Shown here: piece by piece, positions 22,591 to 29,121 of the stretch
Layout of the letters: each line of letters starts with the position of its first letter
Numbering within the stretch: the first letter of the stretch is position 1
Source: Prauserella cavernicola
GTDB taxonomy: Bacteria; Actinomycetota; Actinomycetes; Mycobacteriales; Pseudonocardiaceae
NCBI RefSeq assembly: GCF_016595675.1
Contig: NZ_JAENJH010000009.1
Span: 186,001 to 250,000, forward strand
Direction: 5' to 3'
DNA: 64,000 nt
The notes under the pieces: generated by a model
Seen by the model: only the letters and a program-made list of their open reading frames with translations
What the model was told of the DNA's origin: nothing
The model's database searches: none
Translations under genes and position numbers: made by a program

Positions 22591-23751
22591 CTAGCAGGCG
22601 GGCACGTCGCCCGCCGAGCCCGCGTCGACGAAGGCGGCCGACACGTGGTGACCCGGCCCGATGCGGTACCAGACATCGGTGGTGCCCTCCGGACCGGTCA
22701 CCGACGTGCCCGTGGCCTGGCACTCGAGCGGCACCCCCGCGCGGTTGCCCGCGAGCCCGACGTCGCCGGAGTCGGTGCTCACGTCCGCGCGCACCGTGAG
22801 CGGCCCTCCGTCGGTGGTGATCTCGCCGGTCTCGCCTGAGCCCGTCCAGAGATAGGTGGCGTTGACCCAGCCGTTGTCGTCCATGCCGAGGCCGTCCCAG
22901 AACGTGCCGTCGGCGAGGTCGATCCCCGCTGGGTTGGCGACCGTGCGGTCGAACTGGTCCTTGCCGCCGTTGTAGCCGTCCTCGTGCGCGGCCTGTGCCT
23001 GCGGCGTGCCCTGCGGCAGGTCGGTCCACATCTCCCGCTCGTCCGACGGGCTCCAGTAGTCGTCCTTGGTGTTCCACGGGCCGACGTCCCAGACGGCCGC
23101 GTACGCGCACCTGCTCCCGTCGGTGAGGCACACGCGCACCGAGTAGTCGCCGGTGTCCTTCGGGGACAGTGACCGGCCCGACGGCAGCGCCACGAAGTGG
23201 TCGCGCTCGGTGATCACGTGGCCGTTGGCCGTGGTGCCGCCGACGAGGCCCTCGCGGGTCGCGAACACCTCGTACGTCAGCGCGTCCTGGGCCACCTCGG
23301 CGCGGGCGGCCGGCGCCTGCTCGCCGCGCAGTCCGACCGAGCGCACCTCGGGCGCCGCGGTGGCGGTGGCCGTGAGTTCCACGCGGGCCTGCACGGTGGT
23401 GACCGCGCGGTCCAGAGTGGAACCCGCGGGAGTCCACTGCGTCCAGCGGTCGCCGTCGAGGCCGCGAACCTCCACGCGCACGGACGTGCCGTCGGGCACG
23501 ACCGCGTCGACGTCGGCGACGACGCGGTTGACAGGCCGGTCGAGATCCCGTTGCGCCAGCACGAGATACCCGGTGCCGGGCCGGGTCGTGGTCAGCACCG
23601 TGCCGTCGTGGCGGACGCCGGTGTCGTCGGCATCCACAGTGGAGACCTCGGCGGTCCAGGAGGGGCCGGTGTCCTGGACCGCCGTGGCGATCATGGGGGT
23701 GAGGGCGACCAGTGGGGTCGCCAGGAGAGGAAGGAGTCTGCGGCCGCGCAT
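22591..23751 (-). CDS. Secreted protein with C-terminal SH3-like region
   Basis: A 386-residue protein with a Sec signal peptide (MRGRRLLPLLATPLVALTPMIATA, cleavage near 25). No enzyme motif was recognised. Residues about 60-150 look like a beta-rich domain (VRVEVRGLDGDRWTQWTPAG) seen in exported cell-wall proteins. Residues 150-290 contain paired cysteines (VCLTDGSRCAY) and aromatic stretches (WDVGPWNTKDDYWSPSDE). The end (DVWYRIGPGHHVSAAFVDAG) resembles a bacterial SH3 domain, like the protein encoded at 26904. It lies just downstream of the SARP gene but has its own upstream region with TGTAC repeats. Function unknown. Confidence 0.75.
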   Translation of the reverse strand: MRGRRLLPLLATPLVALTPMIATAVQDTGPSWTAEVSTVDADDTGVRHDGTVLTTTRPGTGYLVLAQRDLDRPVNRVVADVDAVVPDGTSVRVEVRGLDGDRWTQWTPAGSTLDRAVTTVQARVELTATATAAPEVRSVGLRGEQAPAARAEVAQDALTYEVFATREGLVGGTTANGHVITERDHFVALPSGRSLSPKDTGDYSVRVCLTDGSRCAYAAVWDVGPWNTKDDYWSPSDEREMWTDLPQGTPQAQAAHEDGYNGGKDQFDRTVANPAGIDLADGTFWDGLGMDDNGWVNATYLWTGSGETGEITTDGGPLTVRADVSTDSGDVGLAGNRAGVPLECQATGTSVTGPEGTTDVWYRIGPGHHVSAAFVDAGSAGDVPAC

Positions 23752-23806: not shown

Positions 23807-23824
23807 AGGTACACGATCTGTACA
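23807..23824 (-). promoter_or_regulatory. TGTAC direct repeat, predicted SARP (or PhoP) site
   Basis: Read on the minus strand, TGTACAG-ATCG-TGTACCT places two heptads 11 bp apart. The next 8 nt are followed by GAGACT, a possible -10 hexamer. This is the geometry known for AfsR-type SARP targets (heptads at 11-bp spacing, 8 bp before -10). PHO boxes also repeat every 11 bp, so PhoP is an alternative. The site lies 55 nt before the secreted-protein start. Confidence 0.5.
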
Positions 23825-23834
23825 AAAAGGATGT

Positions 23835-26750
23835 TCAGGCTCTGCCCGCCGTGTATGCGTCGTCGCGCCGGCCGGGCAGCAGCCGCTGCGCGCGCTCTGT
23901 GATGTCGAGCTCCCGCCACAGCGCCAGCGCGCTCGCGTAGTAGCGGCGGGAGCGTTCCGGCTGACCCAGCGCGTCGTGCAGCTCGCCGAGCCGCTCGCTG
24001 ACCTCGGCCTCGGACCGCCGGTCGCCCGAGAGCCGGGTGGCCGACAGCGAGTTCACGAGCAGCAGCTGCGCGTGCGCCAGGTCGCCGCTGCACAGGCACA
24101 GCTCGCCCAGGCTCTGGTGTGCGTAGCCCACGCACCGGTCGTCGCCGAGCTCGGTGAAGATCGCGATCGCCTCGTCGAGCTGCTGCCTGGCCGCGCCGAG
24201 CCTGCCCCGGCGCTGGTGCAGCAGCGCCTGCCGTTGCAGGGCGTGGGCCTGGCGGTGCCGGTCGCCGAGCTCGGCGGCGAGCTCCCTGGCTTCGCTGAAC
24301 CAGCGGTCGGCCGTCGCCGTGCAGCCGCGCGCGAGCCACAGGCTGCCGATCGCGAGCCTGGCCACGGCCTCGCCGTGCCGGTCGCCGGTGCGGGCGAACA
24401 GAGTCAGCGCCTCGTGGCAGCACCGCAGACCCGCGTCGTGCTCGCCGAGGATGCGGTGCACGGTCGTCCTGCCGGTCAGCGCCACCGCGGCGCCGCGCTC
24501 GTCGCCCTCCGCGAGAAACAGCGCGTGCGCGCGCATGAACGAGGCCAGCGCGCCGTCGTAGTCGTCCTGGTAGATCAGCAGCTGCCCGAGGTTGCGCAGC
24601 AGGATCGCCTGCCCGCGGGCGTCTCCCGTGCGCTTGGCCGCGTCGAGTCCGATGCGGTGGGTGCTCATCCAGTCGTCGTGGTGGTCGCGCAGGTCGAAGT
24701 AGGGCAGGAACGCGGCGGCCAGCCGCCAGGCGAGGTCGTCGAGGCCCAGGCGCGCGGCCAGCGACACCGCGGCGACGCCGGTGTGGTGCTCGGCCTCGAA
24801 CCACGCCACCGGATCGGCGAGCAGCCCGGCCGACTCGTCGGGGACCCAGCGCCGGTCGTCGCGCGCGGGCAGCAGGCCGAAGAAACGCACAGGCATGCGC
24901 TCGGTGGCCTCCAGTGCGAGCTCGAGGTAGCCCTCCAGCACCCTGCGCGCCACGTCGAGTCTGGCCTCGCCGTCGTCGTGTTCGGCGCGCTCGGCGGCGT
25001 AGCAGCGCAGCAGGTCGTGCAGGCGATAGCGGGGCCGGCCCGCCGCGTCCGTGCCGACGGGCTCCACGAGGTGTGCGTCGAGCAGCACGTCCAGCACGTC
25101 GTCGGCGTGAACCCGGTCGAGCACCGCCGCCGCGGCCCAGGCGGGAAAGCGCACCGCGCCGAGACAGCCGAGCCCGCGCAGGGCCCGTGCGGCGCTGCCG
25201 GGCAGCTGGTCGTAGCTCAGGGTCACGCTCGCGCGCACGGCCAGGTCGCCCACGCGCAGCTCGTCGAGTCGCCTGCGTTCGTCGCTCAGCCGGTCGGCGA
25301 ACATCCGCAGTGTCCAGCCCGGCCGGTGCGCGAGCTTCGCGCCCGCGACGCGGATCGCGAGTGGCAGGTGCCCGCACGAGTCGAGCAGCTCGTCGGCGGC
25401 CTCGGGTTCGGCGGCCGCGCGGTCCTCGCCGACGACGGCCGTGAGCAGGCCCTTCGCCTCGGCGGGCGGCAGCACGTCGAGCTCGACGGGCGTGGCGCCG
25501 GCGAGGTCGGGCAGGCGGGCGCGGCTCGTCACGAGCACGGCGCAGGTGCCCGCGCCGGGCAGCAGCGGCCGGACCTGTGCGGCGTCGGCCGCGTCGTCGA
25601 GCACGACGCACAACCGCGCCGTCGTCAACCGGGCCCGCAGCAGCGCGGCGCGCTCGGTCTGCTGCCTCGGCAGTGTGGAGTCCGGCACGCCCAGCGCCCG
25701 CAGCAGTTCGGCCAGCAGGTCGCCGGGCCTGCGCGGCGTGGCCGTCGTGCCGCCGAGGGCGAGGTGCAGTTGCCCGTCGGGGAACTCCTCCCGCACGGCG
25801 TGGGCCACGTGGACGGCGACGGCCGATTTGCCGACCCCCGGCGGGCCGGACAGCACGGCGACGGTGGGCAGGCCCTCGGTGCCGCGCCGCCGGATCAGCC
25901 CGGCCAGCTCGGTGACGCAGTCCCGTCTGCCGGTGAAGTCGGGCAGATTCAGCGGCAGCCTGCACCCGGGCGCCTGGGCAGGAGCGGGCGGGGGCGGCCG
26001 CGTGGGCGCGGGCGCGGTGCTCAGGGTGGCGTACAGCTCGCGCAGCCGGGGGCCGGGCCGGGCGTCGAGCTCGTCCCGCAGCACCTGCTCGGCCTCGGTG
26101 TAGGCGGTCACCGCCTCGGCCCTGCGCCCTCCCAGGTCGAGTGCGCGGACGAGCTGGAGCCAGAACTCCTCGCGCAGCGGGTGTTTCTCGAGCAGTCCCC
26201 GCAGCTCGGCGACCGCCTCCTCGTACTCGCCGAGATCGACGCGGGTGCGCAGGCGCAGCTCGTGCGCGCCGAGGCGTAGCTCCGCGAGCCTGGCCAGCGG
26301 CGCGCCCCACGTGTGGCTGTGCGGCAGGTCCGCGAGTGCGGGGCCGCGCCAGAGCCGTTCGGCCTCGGTCAGCAGCGCGAGCGCGGACCTGGGATCGGCG
26401 CCGCCCAGCGCCGTGCGGGCCTCGGCGAGGCGGTCCTCGAACAGCGTCGTGTCGAGCAGCCCCGGCTCCACCGTGAGCAGGTAACCGGACGAGCTGCGCT
26501 CGAGTCCCGCGCCGCTGCCCTCGAGTCTGGCGCGCAGGAAGTGCACGTAGGTGCGAAGGTTCGCGGCAGCGGACGCGGGCGGGGAGTCGGGCCACAACAC
26601 CTCGGCGAGATGGTCCTTCGACACGGTCACGCCGGGTTGCAGCAGCAGGGCGGCCAGAAGCATGCGGGGTTTGCGCCCGCCGAGCGGGACCGCCCGTCCC
26701 TCGACGACGACCTCGAGCGGGCCGAGCAGGCGGAAGAGAGTCGCGGTCAC
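23835..26750 (-). CDS. SARP transcriptional activator, AfsR-type with NB-ARC and TPR
   Basis: A 971-residue regulator with the full AfsR architecture. An OmpR-like winged helix is at residues 5-95, the bacterial activation domain (BTAD) at 96-245 and a proline-rich linker at 248-265. An NB-ARC STAND ATPase follows, with Walker A SGPPGVGKS (301-309), Walker B LCVVLDD (380-386), TSRARLPDL sensor and CGHLPLAIRVAG. TPR repeats run from about 650 to the end. GTG at 26750 is chosen because the frame upstream lacks SARP sequence and a G-rich site (GGGGGTGG) precedes it. It is divergent from the SH3/phoD operon. The trigger molecule is unknown. Confidence 0.9.
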   Translation of the reverse strand: MTATLFRLLGPLEVVVEGRAVPLGGRKPRMLLAALLLQPGVTVSKDHLAEVLWPDSPPASAAANLRTYVHFLRARLEGSGAGLERSSSGYLLTVEPGLLDTTLFEDRLAEARTALGGADPRSALALLTEAERLWRGPALADLPHSHTWGAPLARLAELRLGAHELRLRTRVDLGEYEEAVAELRGLLEKHPLREEFWLQLVRALDLGGRRAEAVTAYTEAEQVLRDELDARPGPRLRELYATLSTAPAPTRPPPPAPAQAPGCRLPLNLPDFTGRRDCVTELAGLIRRRGTEGLPTVAVLSGPPGVGKSAVAVHVAHAVREEFPDGQLHLALGGTTATPRRPGDLLAELLRALGVPDSTLPRQQTERAALLRARLTTARLCVVLDDAADAAQVRPLLPGAGTCAVLVTSRARLPDLAGATPVELDVLPPAEAKGLLTAVVGEDRAAAEPEAADELLDSCGHLPLAIRVAGAKLAHRPGWTLRMFADRLSDERRRLDELRVGDLAVRASVTLSYDQLPGSAARALRGLGCLGAVRFPAWAAAAVLDRVHADDVLDVLLDAHLVEPVGTDAAGRPRYRLHDLLRCYAAERAEHDDGEARLDVARRVLEGYLELALEATERMPVRFFGLLPARDDRRWVPDESAGLLADPVAWFEAEHHTGVAAVSLAARLGLDDLAWRLAAAFLPYFDLRDHHDDWMSTHRIGLDAAKRTGDARGQAILLRNLGQLLIYQDDYDGALASFMRAHALFLAEGDERGAAVALTGRTTVHRILGEHDAGLRCCHEALTLFARTGDRHGEAVARLAIGSLWLARGCTATADRWFSEARELAAELGDRHRQAHALQRQALLHQRRGRLGAARQQLDEAIAIFTELGDDRCVGYAHQSLGELCLCSGDLAHAQLLLVNSLSATRLSGDRRSEAEVSERLGELHDALGQPERSRRYYASALALWRELDITERAQRLLPGRRDDAYTAGRA

Positions 26751-26864
26751 GCTCGACCACCCCCAGCGCTGCGCGGACCAGGTCAAACCCGGATCGTAGG
26801 TCCAGACCGCACGGTCCGACAGTGCCAAAGGTAGGCCGGTTGGTGAACGCTGAACAGGCCACCT

Positions 26865-26882
26865 TGTACGAAACATGTACAC
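26865..26882 (+). promoter_or_regulatory. TGTAC direct repeat upstream of SH3-phoD operon
   Basis: TGTACGA-AACA-TGTACAC has the same 11-bp heptad spacing as the site at 23807-23824. A CACGCT hexamer lies 8 nt downstream (26891-26896), which would place the transcription start close to the ATG at 26904. The second unit with its flank (GTACACCCGTC) also resembles a PHO-box unit, so PhoP control of the phosphatase operon is an alternative to SARP control. Confidence 0.5.
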
Positions 26883-26903
26883 CCGTCCCGCACGCTCGAG
26901 GAC

Positions 26904-27548
26904 ATGGCGCGCTCACCGATCCGCATCGCCGCCGCCGCACTGGCCGCCGCGGCGGCACTGGCACTGGCGGCTCCGCCCGCGGCCGCGGCCGTCGACGGCA
27001 CGGTCGAGACCGGGGGTGAGGCGCTGACCGTCCGCCGCGCGGCGAGCACCAGCTCCACCGACGTCGGCGAGGTCGCGAACGGCACCGCGGTGAGCATCGA
27101 CTGCCGCACCACGGGACCCGAGGTCTCCGGTCCCGTCGGCACCACCACGCGCTGGGACTACGTGCCCGAACTCGAGGGATATGTCTCGGGCGCCTACGTC
27201 CGGATCGCCGACTCCCAGACCGCGCCCGACTGCGGCGTCGGCACCGGCAGCGCCCGGTGCTCGTCGGGCTCGTGCGCCGGTGAGGCGGTGTTCGACTCCG
27301 CGGATCCGCGGTTCGTGGTGTACGACCAGGCAGCCGACGGCAGGTCCGCGGTGGTCACGTACTGGCTCGACGGCGGGGCGGGCCCGCAGTACGCCTGGAA
27401 CTCCGAGGGCAACGGCACGGACGTCGAGCGTCCCGTCGAGGTGGCCTCGGGCGAATGGATCCACTACCGCGTGTGCGTGGCCAACTATTCCGACAGCGAC
27501 CCCGATCTCGAGTCCTGTGGGCCCGCGATCACCGACTACGCGGCGTGA
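26904..27548 (+). CDS. Secreted SH3-domain protein
   Basis: A 214-residue exported protein: Sec signal peptide through about residue 29 (LAAPPAAAA), then an SH3b-type domain (residues 35-105: GEALTVRRAASTSSTDVGEVANGTAVSID...WDYVPELEGYVSGAYV), then a C-terminal domain with four cysteines (CGVGTGSARCSSGSC, and later VCVANYSDSDPDLESCG). No catalytic motif is visible. It is followed after 19 bp by phoD and is probably co-transcribed with it. SH3b domains often bind the cell wall, so it may hold a partner at the surface; this is inference. Confidence 0.8.
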   Translation: MARSPIRIAAAALAAAAALALAAPPAAAAVDGTVETGGEALTVRRAASTSSTDVGEVANGTAVSIDCRTTGPEVSGPVGTTTRWDYVPELEGYVSGAYVRIADSQTAPDCGVGTGSARCSSGSCAGEAVFDSADPRFVVYDQAADGRSAVVTYWLDGGAGPQYAWNSEGNGTDVERPVEVASGEWIHYRVCVANYSDSDPDLESCGPAITDYAA

Positions 27549-27567
27549 ACGAGAACGGAGGCACGCG

Positions 27568-29121
27568 ATGGCACAGGTGAACCGGCGGCTGGTTCTGCTC
27601 GGCGGCGTCGCGGCCGCGGCGGGAGCCGTCACGCTGCCCACGTCCCTGCCCGCCTGGGCACGATCCAGGACCGCCGCGTCGGCACCGGCAATCCGAGACC
27701 CGTTTCAACTGGGGGTGGCCTCGGGTGACCCGTTGCCGGACAGCGTCGTGCTGTGGACGCGCCTCGCGCCCGCGCCGCTCAACGAGGACGGGTTCGGCGG
27801 CATGCCGGACGCGGCCTACGACGTGGAGTGGGAGCTGGCCACCGACGAGAACTTCGGTTCGGTGGTGCAGAACGGCACGGTGTCCACCTCGCGCGCGATG
27901 GGGCACAGCGTGCACGTGGAGCCCGAGGGGCTCGAGGCGGGCAGGGACTATTTCTACCGGTTCCGCACCGAGGGCCACCTCTCGCCCGCGGGCCGCACCC
28001 GCACCGCACCGGCGGCGGACTCGGCGGTGGACAGCCTCACCTACTGCTTCACGTCCTGCCAGCACTGGGAGGAGGGCTGGTACCACGCGCACCGCGGCAT
28101 CGCCGACGACGACCCGGATCTGGTGCTGTTCCTCGGCGACTACATCTACGAGAAGCCGTCGGGGCGGGAACCGGAGCTGAAGGTGCGGGGGCTCGCCGTC
28201 ACCGACGAGACCACGACGCTCGCCCTGTACCGCGCCCGCTACGGCCAGCACAAGACGGACTCCGACCTGCAGGCCGCGCACGCGGCGGCGCCGTGGCTCG
28301 TCGTGTTCGACGACCACGAGGTGGTCAACAACTGGAACTCGACGTCGAGCCCCGCCGGGACCCAGCGCAAGGAGGAGGCGTTCCAGGCGTTCTACGAGAA
28401 CATGCCGATCCGCTCGTCGGCCGTGCCGGACGGCGCGAAGATCCAGCTGTACCGGCGGTTCCAGTGGGGTCAGCTCGCCCGGTTCCACCTGCTCGACACC
28501 CGCCAGCATCGCGACGCGCAGGCCGAGGACGACAGCTGCTCCGTGATGCGCGACCCCGACCGCACGATCACCGGCTCGGAGCAGGAGAAGTGGCTGCTCG
28601 ACGCGTTCGCCACGCAGCCGTCGACGTGGGACTTCCTCGGTCAGCAGGTGTTCTTCGCCCAGCGCGACGGCGACGGCGACAAGGACACGTGCGACGACAC
28701 CGACGCCTGGGACGGCTACGAGGGCTCGCGCGACCGCATCACCCAGGGCTGGGTGGACGCGGGGGTGCCGAACATGGTGGTGCTGACCGGCGACGTCCAC
28801 CGGCACTGGGCGGCCGATCTGCGCCAGGACTACTTCGACCACGACAGCGCCGTGGTCGGCTCGGAGCTGGTCACCACATCGGTGTCGAGCACGAGTGCGG
28901 GCGCGGAACCGCCGAGCGAACAGTGGCTGGCGAACAACCCGCACATCAAGTACTGCCAGGGAGAACGCGGCTACGTGCGGGTCACCGCGACGTCCGGCGA
29001 ACTCAAGGCCGACTTCCGCGTGGTGTCCGACGCGCTGGAACAGGACCCGGCGAAGGTGGAGATCACCACCGATGCCAGCTACGTCGTGGAGGCGGGAACG
29101 CCGGGACTGAAACCCGCCTAG
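27568..29121 (+). CDS. phoD: PhoD-type alkaline phosphatase/phosphodiesterase
   Basis: A 517-residue PhoD-family enzyme that releases phosphate from phosphomono- or diesters outside the cell using Fe/Ca. The N-terminus has a twin-arginine signal (NRRLVLLGGVAAAAGAVTLP, residues 5-24, AWA near 30). The PhoD N-terminal domain (FQLGVASGDPLPDSVVLWTRLAP) and metallophosphatase motifs follow: CFTSCQ, FLGDYIYE, FDDHEVVNNW and VVLTGDVHRHW. ATG at 27568 follows GGAG. Its last codons lie in the left copy of the 21-bp repeat bounding the insert at 29132. Confidence 0.9.
   Translation: MAQVNRRLVLLGGVAAAAGAVTLPTSLPAWARSRTAASAPAIRDPFQLGVASGDPLPDSVVLWTRLAPAPLNEDGFGGMPDAAYDVEWELATDENFGSVVQNGTVSTSRAMGHSVHVEPEGLEAGRDYFYRFRTEGHLSPAGRTRTAPAADSAVDSLTYCFTSCQHWEEGWYHAHRGIADDDPDLVLFLGDYIYEKPSGREPELKVRGLAVTDETTTLALYRARYGQHKTDSDLQAAHAAAPWLVVFDDHEVVNNWNSTSSPAGTQRKEEAFQAFYENMPIRSSAVPDGAKIQLYRRFQWGQLARFHLLDTRQHRDAQAEDDSCSVMRDPDRTITGSEQEKWLLDAFATQPSTWDFLGQQVFFAQRDGDGDKDTCDDTDAWDGYEGSRDRITQGWVDAGVPNMVVLTGDVHRHWAADLRQDYFDHDSAVVGSELVTTSVSSTSAGAEPPSEQWLANNPHIKYCQGERGYVRVTATSGELKADFRVVSDALEQDPAKVEITTDASYVVEAGTPGLKPA

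Follow-up and report, generated by a model that had tools for sequence, protein, structure and literature searches.

SARPs have been studied mostly as antibiotic switches. One member of the group, EmbR of Mycobacterium tuberculosis, is linked to the cell wall, its targets there being synthesis genes. To our knowledge, the small cluster-situated SARPs have no NB-ARC-TPR part of the kind discussed here. The closest described system is AfsR of Streptomyces coelicolor, which has the domain order SARP (wHTH-BTAD)-NB-ARC-TPR and whose target is afsS. AfsR is associated with two 11-bp direct repeats over the -35 region followed by a weak -10 element, and its side-by-side dimer is visible by cryo-EM (PMC10936776). 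Cluster-situated SARPs such as ActII-4, DnrI and PimR likewise have direct heptads, generally over the -35 region (PMC10972967), and control biosynthetic clusters. Here we consider a locus in a 64,000-nucleotide stretch of Prauserella cavernicola DNA (the window; assembly GCF_016595675.1, contig NZ_JAENJH010000009.1, positions 186,001 to 250,000), in which the gene for a large AfsR-like SARP lies between two promoters with TGTAC direct repeats. From sequence comparisons, we consider it likely that the SARP acts on both flanking sites as its operators, through which it would activate a regulon of exported proteins.

Site A (TGTACAGATCGTGTAC, 23824-23809, minus strand) is located upstream of a gene labeled secA here, a label coined for this analysis, and site B (TGTACGAAACATGTAC, 26865-26880, plus strand) upstream of an SH3-phoD gene pair. 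Both are 11-bp direct repeats of the form TGTAC-N6-TGTAC. A -10-like hexamer of the form xAnnCT follows each site at the identical distance of 10 bp, namely GAGACT (23798-23793, minus strand) and CACGCT (26891-26896, plus strand, 7 nt before the ATG), and both are putative in function. The common core is TGTAC, and the 7-mers differ (TGTACAG/TGTACCT at site A, TGTACGA/TGTACAC at site B). Counted as 7-mers, both sites have the 11-bp periodicity and the 8 bp to the -10 that the first-pass annotation had described as the arrangement of AfsR-type SARP targets. This agrees with the SARP promoter rule of 11-bp (or 22-bp) repeats with the 3' repeat 8 bp from the -10 (PMC10936776), the -10 itself being predicted here.

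The exact pattern TGTAC-N6-TGTAC occurs three times in the 7,209,600 bases of the window genome, and two of these matches flank the SARP gene. The reversed control pattern occurs once, so that the count by itself is unremarkable, and a small number near its control is what one might expect if the repeats had arisen by chance in two promoters. Their placement argues otherwise. Sites A and B, one at each end of the SARP gene, are 3,056 bp apart and directed outward into the promoters, and the probability that two of three randomly placed positions fall within 3,056 bp is 0.0026, outward orientation not included. The third exact match (L078:6393(-)), upstream of an XRE-cupin regulator, lacks the A..CT element and is probably a chance occurrence. 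A composite pattern that includes the -10 (TGTAY-N6-TGTAY-N11-ANNCT, with the reversed pattern as control) finds only sites A and B in the window genome, and the same holds with an additional leading T and one mismatch permitted. With two mismatches, TGTACN6TGTAC matches the window 13 times against 11.1 expected; this is near expectation and thus the signal resides in the exact sites.

The repeats are kept in relatives that have the genes. In a family set of 200 genomes, the window's own included, a search with the SH3 protein gave matches in 42 genomes, from which the 15 near-full-length ones outside the window were used (n = 16 with the window). TGTAY-N6-TGTAY is found at the same place in 15 of these 16 orthologues, the exception being genome G162 with TGTAC-N6-TATAT. 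In all 16, xAnnCT stands exactly 10 bp past the box and the ATG 38-40 nt from the first box base. secA is present in 12 of the 16 loci and TGTAY-N6-TGTA(C/G) precedes it in 12/12, window included. Chance is already refuted because the sites are conserved in orthologues, and we assign it practically no probability. With this spacing to the ATG, 6-8 nt remain between the end of the -10 and the start codon, so that the SH3 mRNA is probably leaderless. The AfsR box spans -40 to -19 (PMC10936776); by this measure, transcription would start around the 41st base from the box start, near the SH3 ATGs.

A SARP with at least 58% identity lies inside the module in 12 of the 16 loci (window included). In G022, the module lacks the SARP and retains both sites back to back, and a 63% orthologue is encoded on another contig; the secA and SH3 boxes of this genome are identical (TGTACGGATCGTGTAC, at L034:9841(-) and 9863(+)). 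G066 and G031 have 44-47% SARPs at distances of 6.5 and 0.9 kb, respectively, and in G162 there is no SARP within the 20 kb read. Three weaker SH3 matches in genus g24 (L026, L027, L030) have no TGTA-N7-TGTA within 3.3 kb. In G002, which belongs to the genus of the window, both sites and a decayed piece of secA remain at L077:6496-6977, while SARP, SH3 and phoD are gone. One of the two sites is the same 16-mer, TGTACGAAACATGTAC, as site B. Judging from these remnants, the module has been deleted here and has left a scar. Neither an SH3 match nor a close SARP is found anywhere else in the G002 genome, so switch and targets appear to have been lost together, possibly in one deletion. The other two genomes of the genus have no composite site, SH3 match or close SARP.

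Across the family set, the composite pattern gives 104 matches in 40 genomes, compared with five for the reversed control. Outside the family (391 genomes) there are 12 matches against 17 for the control, which places the composite at background there. When both gaps were varied in 33 genomes, 91 of the 150 matches listed had gaps of 6 and 11; the next combination accounted for 16 of these 150, many of which stem from a single recurring sequence that may be coding. The repeat consensus over 75 distinct sites, which left out the TGTATACAAGCTGTATG class described below, is TGTACGGnTCT. The first-pass annotation had proposed a self-contained regulon. The composite is indeed confined to the module in the window genome, but the proposal is too narrow for the relatives, where up to eight sites occur per genome.

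To each site we assigned the first-ranked downstream reading frame given by a script and classed it by eye. By this reading, 90 of the 104 sites precede exported proteins: SH3-phoD (15), secA and its paralogues (13), a second SH3 protein (11), GH6 (5), M23 (10), sialidase-like (10), peptidoglycan (PG)-binding (12), CHAP-like (12) and other exported proteins (2, one of them GH39-like). Two targets were assigned against the script, in G186 (CHAP-like, from similar context) and G193 (sialidase-like, with a misplaced start). Proteins are named by family matches, several of which fall under curated cut-offs. Representatives exceed the Pfam cut-offs for GH6, M23, BNR (in the sialidase-like proteins) and GH39, while the second SH3 protein stays under its cut-off (25.2 versus 27). 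The CHAP-like class is based on one sub-cut-off match (E 7e-4, G122) together with sequence likeness, and the PG-binding class on matches just under the cut-off (E 1.3e-4) or weaker. A simple heuristic for signal peptides, crude and erring in both directions, is satisfied in 89 of 101 distinct family contexts, compared with 21% (627/3000) and 25% (490/2000) of random positions.

Peptidoglycan is the substrate or ligand of the M23, CHAP, PG-binding and SH3b families, and the sialidase-like and GH6 targets widen the scope from peptidoglycan to polysaccharides. Within the family, the box stands mainly before genes for exported proteins, not antibiotic genes, and many of these proteins are probably enzymes acting on the cell wall or on polysaccharides. 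The same holds in the window, where two SH3-type exported proteins and a PhoD protein had been proposed as targets instead of an antibiotic cluster: both sites precede exported-protein genes, although no cluster search was made, and for all 104 sites the inspection covered the first-ranked downstream gene and not whole clusters. This sets the locus apart from the cluster-situated SARPs with their biosynthetic clusters and from AfsR with its target afsS.

The SARP between the sites (23835..26750, minus strand, GTG start, 971 aa) is a large AfsR-type SARP with an OmpR-type wHTH followed by BTAD, NB-ARC/STAND and TPR domains. Pfam matches exceed the cut-offs for BTAD (8e-35), NB-ARC (3.8e-11) and TPR_12, and Trans_reg_C lies just under its cut-off. 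The protein aligns with the solved AfsR (PDB) at E 1e-115 over residues 4-953. It scores 534 bits against the NCBIfam model NF053617, for which the cut-off is 1430, and is not an AfsR equivalog by this measure. It also shares the SARP fold of EmbR (PMC9239209), matching 2fez at E 9e-30. EmbR differs in having an FHA domain (PMC10936776) where the window SARP has NB-ARC-TPR.

Orthologues of this SARP (at least 57% identity) and the composite box co-occur in the family set. Of the 40 site-positive genomes, 22 have an orthologue, compared with 9 of the 160 site-negative ones (Fisher p 8e-12). This value ignores relatedness, the 22 genomes representing five genera, and depends on a 57% line set after seeing the gap beneath it. 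Two of the 31 orthologues, in G112 and G145, are in pieces or partial. The SARP might nevertheless be a mere neighbor of a real and conserved box that is read by another regulator of the family, either a paralogous SARP or an OmpR-type protein unrelated to it. Both occur together even where they are unlinked, namely in G022 and in genus g26, which argues against such another reader. Furthermore, the site is found near SARPs of this lineage together with three different kinds of partner, in one case in a genus outside the family. In three genomes (G010, G084, G122), a 45% SARP neighbors a CHAP-like gene that has a TGTAY-N6-TGTAY box. In Nonomuraea dietziae DSM 44320 (L149), 20 bp separate the start of a 45% SARP match from a perfect composite site, which would drive an M23 peptidase gene (Pfam 7e-26). 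This site is the only TGTAY-N6-TGTAY in 876 kb comprising at least 55 SARP-related loci, none of which is above 50% identity among the matches listed. The varied partners near one regulator lineage are, at the level of sequence, the best evidence that the SARP reads the box.

The reservations attached to the Fisher value weigh against this assignment, and so do several further observations. Nine of the 31 orthologue-bearing genomes lack a composite site. In three of these (G012, G057, G114), a less strict form of the box stands close to the SARP, in a position to drive an M23 gene, and the other six (G026, G127, G131, G143, G145, G159) have no TGTA-N7-TGTA within the 19-20 kb around the SARP. 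Conversely, 18 of the 40 site-positive genomes lack a 57% orthologue; 11 of these have 45-52% SARPs, and the remaining seven have weaker SARPs or none at the cut-off used. Each genome encodes dozens of first-look SARP candidates, so a paralogue could read the box. In three genomes of genus g21 (G088, G158, G171), a SARP of 36-44% identity starts 82-248 bp from the composite (L105:5840(-), L051:1501(+), L052:1501(+)), which points away from it and has no evident target. Among the nine site-positive g26 genomes, the box precedes a CHAP-like gene in eight, and in G028 it precedes a second SH3 protein and a secA paralogue. The SARP has no adjacent box in the four g26 SARP regions read (G028, G112, G174, G186), and thus the link in this genus is co-occurrence only.

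Downstream of 14 of the 104 sites, moreover, no exported gene was recognized. Four of these precede a DUF2848 gene and ten lie in G002, G061, G066 (C27, twice), G088, G118, G158, G162, G171 and G177; by eye, the 14 include a radical-SAM-like gene (G066) and a glycosyltransferase-like gene (G177). A base-contacting residue of AfsR is also replaced: R92, which touches T-38 (PMC10936776), corresponds to F71 in the window SARP and to S, G or N in close orthologues. Taking both sides together, we consider it unlikely that a paralogue or another OmpR-type protein is the reader.

With the SARP as the probable reader, its DNA-binding domain can be compared with that of AfsR. The repeat of AfsR is CGTT(T/C)ATCGNN (PMC10972967), and its best match around the two sites reaches 11/18. 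The core TGTACG is unlike this repeat, so the locus has the AfsR arrangement with another sequence. The stretch coding for the recognition helix (AANLRTYVHFLRAR, 26526..26567, minus strand, SARP residues 62-75) was placed by AfsR alignment and orthologues. Six AfsR residues that contact DNA are listed as conserved (Q48, W74, P79, T88, R94 and K95; PMC10936776). Four of the six (W74, P79, T88, R94) are kept as W53, P58, T67 and R73, whereas Q48 and K95 are replaced by K27 and A74, and S91 by H. The altered recognition helix, with S91 and R92 replaced, would fit the altered box (TGTACG instead of CGTT(T/C)A). In the likely arrangement, the 11-bp TGTACG repeats would hold two adjacent SARP protomers where a good -35 element is missing, and the protomers would bring RNA polymerase to the weak -10 (xAnnCT) 10 bp downstream. 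As in AfsR, the SARP part is presumably governed by a signal that passes through the NB-ARC/TPR part. The predicted output consists of exported proteins, secA and SH3-phoD in the window genome and additionally M23 peptidase, CHAP-like, PG-binding, sialidase-like, GH6 and GH39-like proteins in relatives.

PHO boxes of actinomycetes have an OmpR-type reader. They consist of 11-bp direct repeat units (PMC4415409, PMC6880422), and in Streptomyces PhoP is a competitor of AfsR at afsS (PMC4415409). Because of the shared spacing, the two sites had been suggested as a possible meeting point of SARP and PhoP, and they could be PHO boxes or joint SARP-PhoP sites that respond to phosphate. The shared periodicity, the presence of phoD among the targets, the afsS precedent and the second repeat of site B, GTACACC, which is one base off GTTCACC, speak for a phosphate response. 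The core sequence does not. In Saccharopolyspora erythraea the PHO repeat is GtTCacc (PMC6880422), whereas the core over the 75 distinct sites is TGTACGG, and the targets elsewhere are peptidases and glycosidases. Around either site there is no pair of PHO words at 11-bp distance with more than 10/14 matches, that is, no two GTTCACC-like 11-nt units. We therefore reject the PHO-box assignment on the core sequence, find no support for the proposed meeting point and regard a phosphate-responsive site as very unlikely; PHO boxes also differ in being read by a response regulator, not a SARP. On the SARP strand, GTTCAGCGTTCACC (26838-26857, minus) contains two PHO-like words spaced 7 bp apart, not 11, and the GTGAAC on the opposite strand is kept in G002.

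It is possible, although doubtful, that the STAND (NLR-like) SARP senses wall damage or a neighbor cell and switches on a lytic secretome through the TGTACG box. Such a program of wall attack or remodeling would combine the core module secA/SARP/SH3-phoD with lineage-specific additions, and the secretome would comprise the PhoD phosphodiesterase, endopeptidases, a CHAP-like amidase, sialidase-like and other glycosidases and SH3b wall binders. More generally, the regulon could serve either remodeling of the own wall (growth, sporulation) or an attack on, or feeding from, other cells. If the SARP does control, through its own box, a regulon of exported, largely wall-directed proteins, as we consider likely, the SARP family would gain a second role. 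Orphan AfsR-like STAND regulators could then be sorted by a readable operator, and the module would be a simple system for asking what NB-ARC/TPR proteins sense. Among the literature matches listed, as far as their accessible portions go, none ties a SARP to a TGTACG box or to wall-enzyme genes.

The SARP gene lies between secA and the divergent SH3-phoD pair (26904-29121, plus strand). secA (22591..23751, minus strand) encodes an exported 386-aa protein with an N-terminal beta-rich region, a conserved middle and a C-terminal SH3b domain. A profile of ten orthologues matches PDB SH3b chains with a best E of 2.6e-7, while the window protein matches no Pfam family even at E up to 5 and only the N-terminal part of the NCBIfam GsmA model (33.5 bits, under the cut-off of 240). 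By eye, the middle region has a likeness to the motif of RlpA-type double-psi barrels; this is not claimed because Pfam gave nothing at E up to 5. A low-confidence structure model (mean pLDDT 55) was not used. SH3 (26904..27548, plus strand) encodes an exported 214-aa protein with an N-terminal SH3b domain, which reaches 22.1 bits against Pfam SH3_3 (E 1.7e-4, cut-off 27) and 53.5 bits against the N-terminal part of GsmA, under the cut-off of 240. The PhoD-like phosphatase/phosphodiesterase gene (27568..29121, plus strand) begins 19 bp after SH3; its product has a Tat-type leader (by eye) and matches Pfam PhoD (1.8e-100) and PhoD_N (2.4e-32). PhoD of Bacillus subtilis is an extracytoplasmic phosphodiesterase (PMC4223295). 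Farther out lie genes for an LCP-family protein and a pyridoxal phosphate (PLP) enzyme, both named by Pfam.

Three observations concern sites and targets in relatives. The DUF2848 gene, whose product is not exported, is preceded by TGTATACAAGCTGTATG at L079:6440(-) and three orthologous places, identical in four genomes of genus g15. This sequence resembles what we take to be a GntR-type palindrome; it appears to fit the pattern by accident, and its sites are counted among the 104 and outside the 90. A variant box with the -10 one base closer (L128:6804(-) and L129:6853(-)) precedes a protein with a Tat-like leader, and the L128 protein matches Pfam Phage_RBD_prop (E 6.8e-14), a five-bladed propeller of phage receptor-binding platforms. 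Finally, an M23 protein (L081:6115-7023) and a sialidase-like protein (L082:4473-5978) resemble each other, by eye, in a C-terminal stretch that is about 100 residues long and ends in CG. The same stretch is seen by eye in the Nonomuraea M23 protein (L149:6997-7911) and is possibly a common wall- or glycan-binding module.

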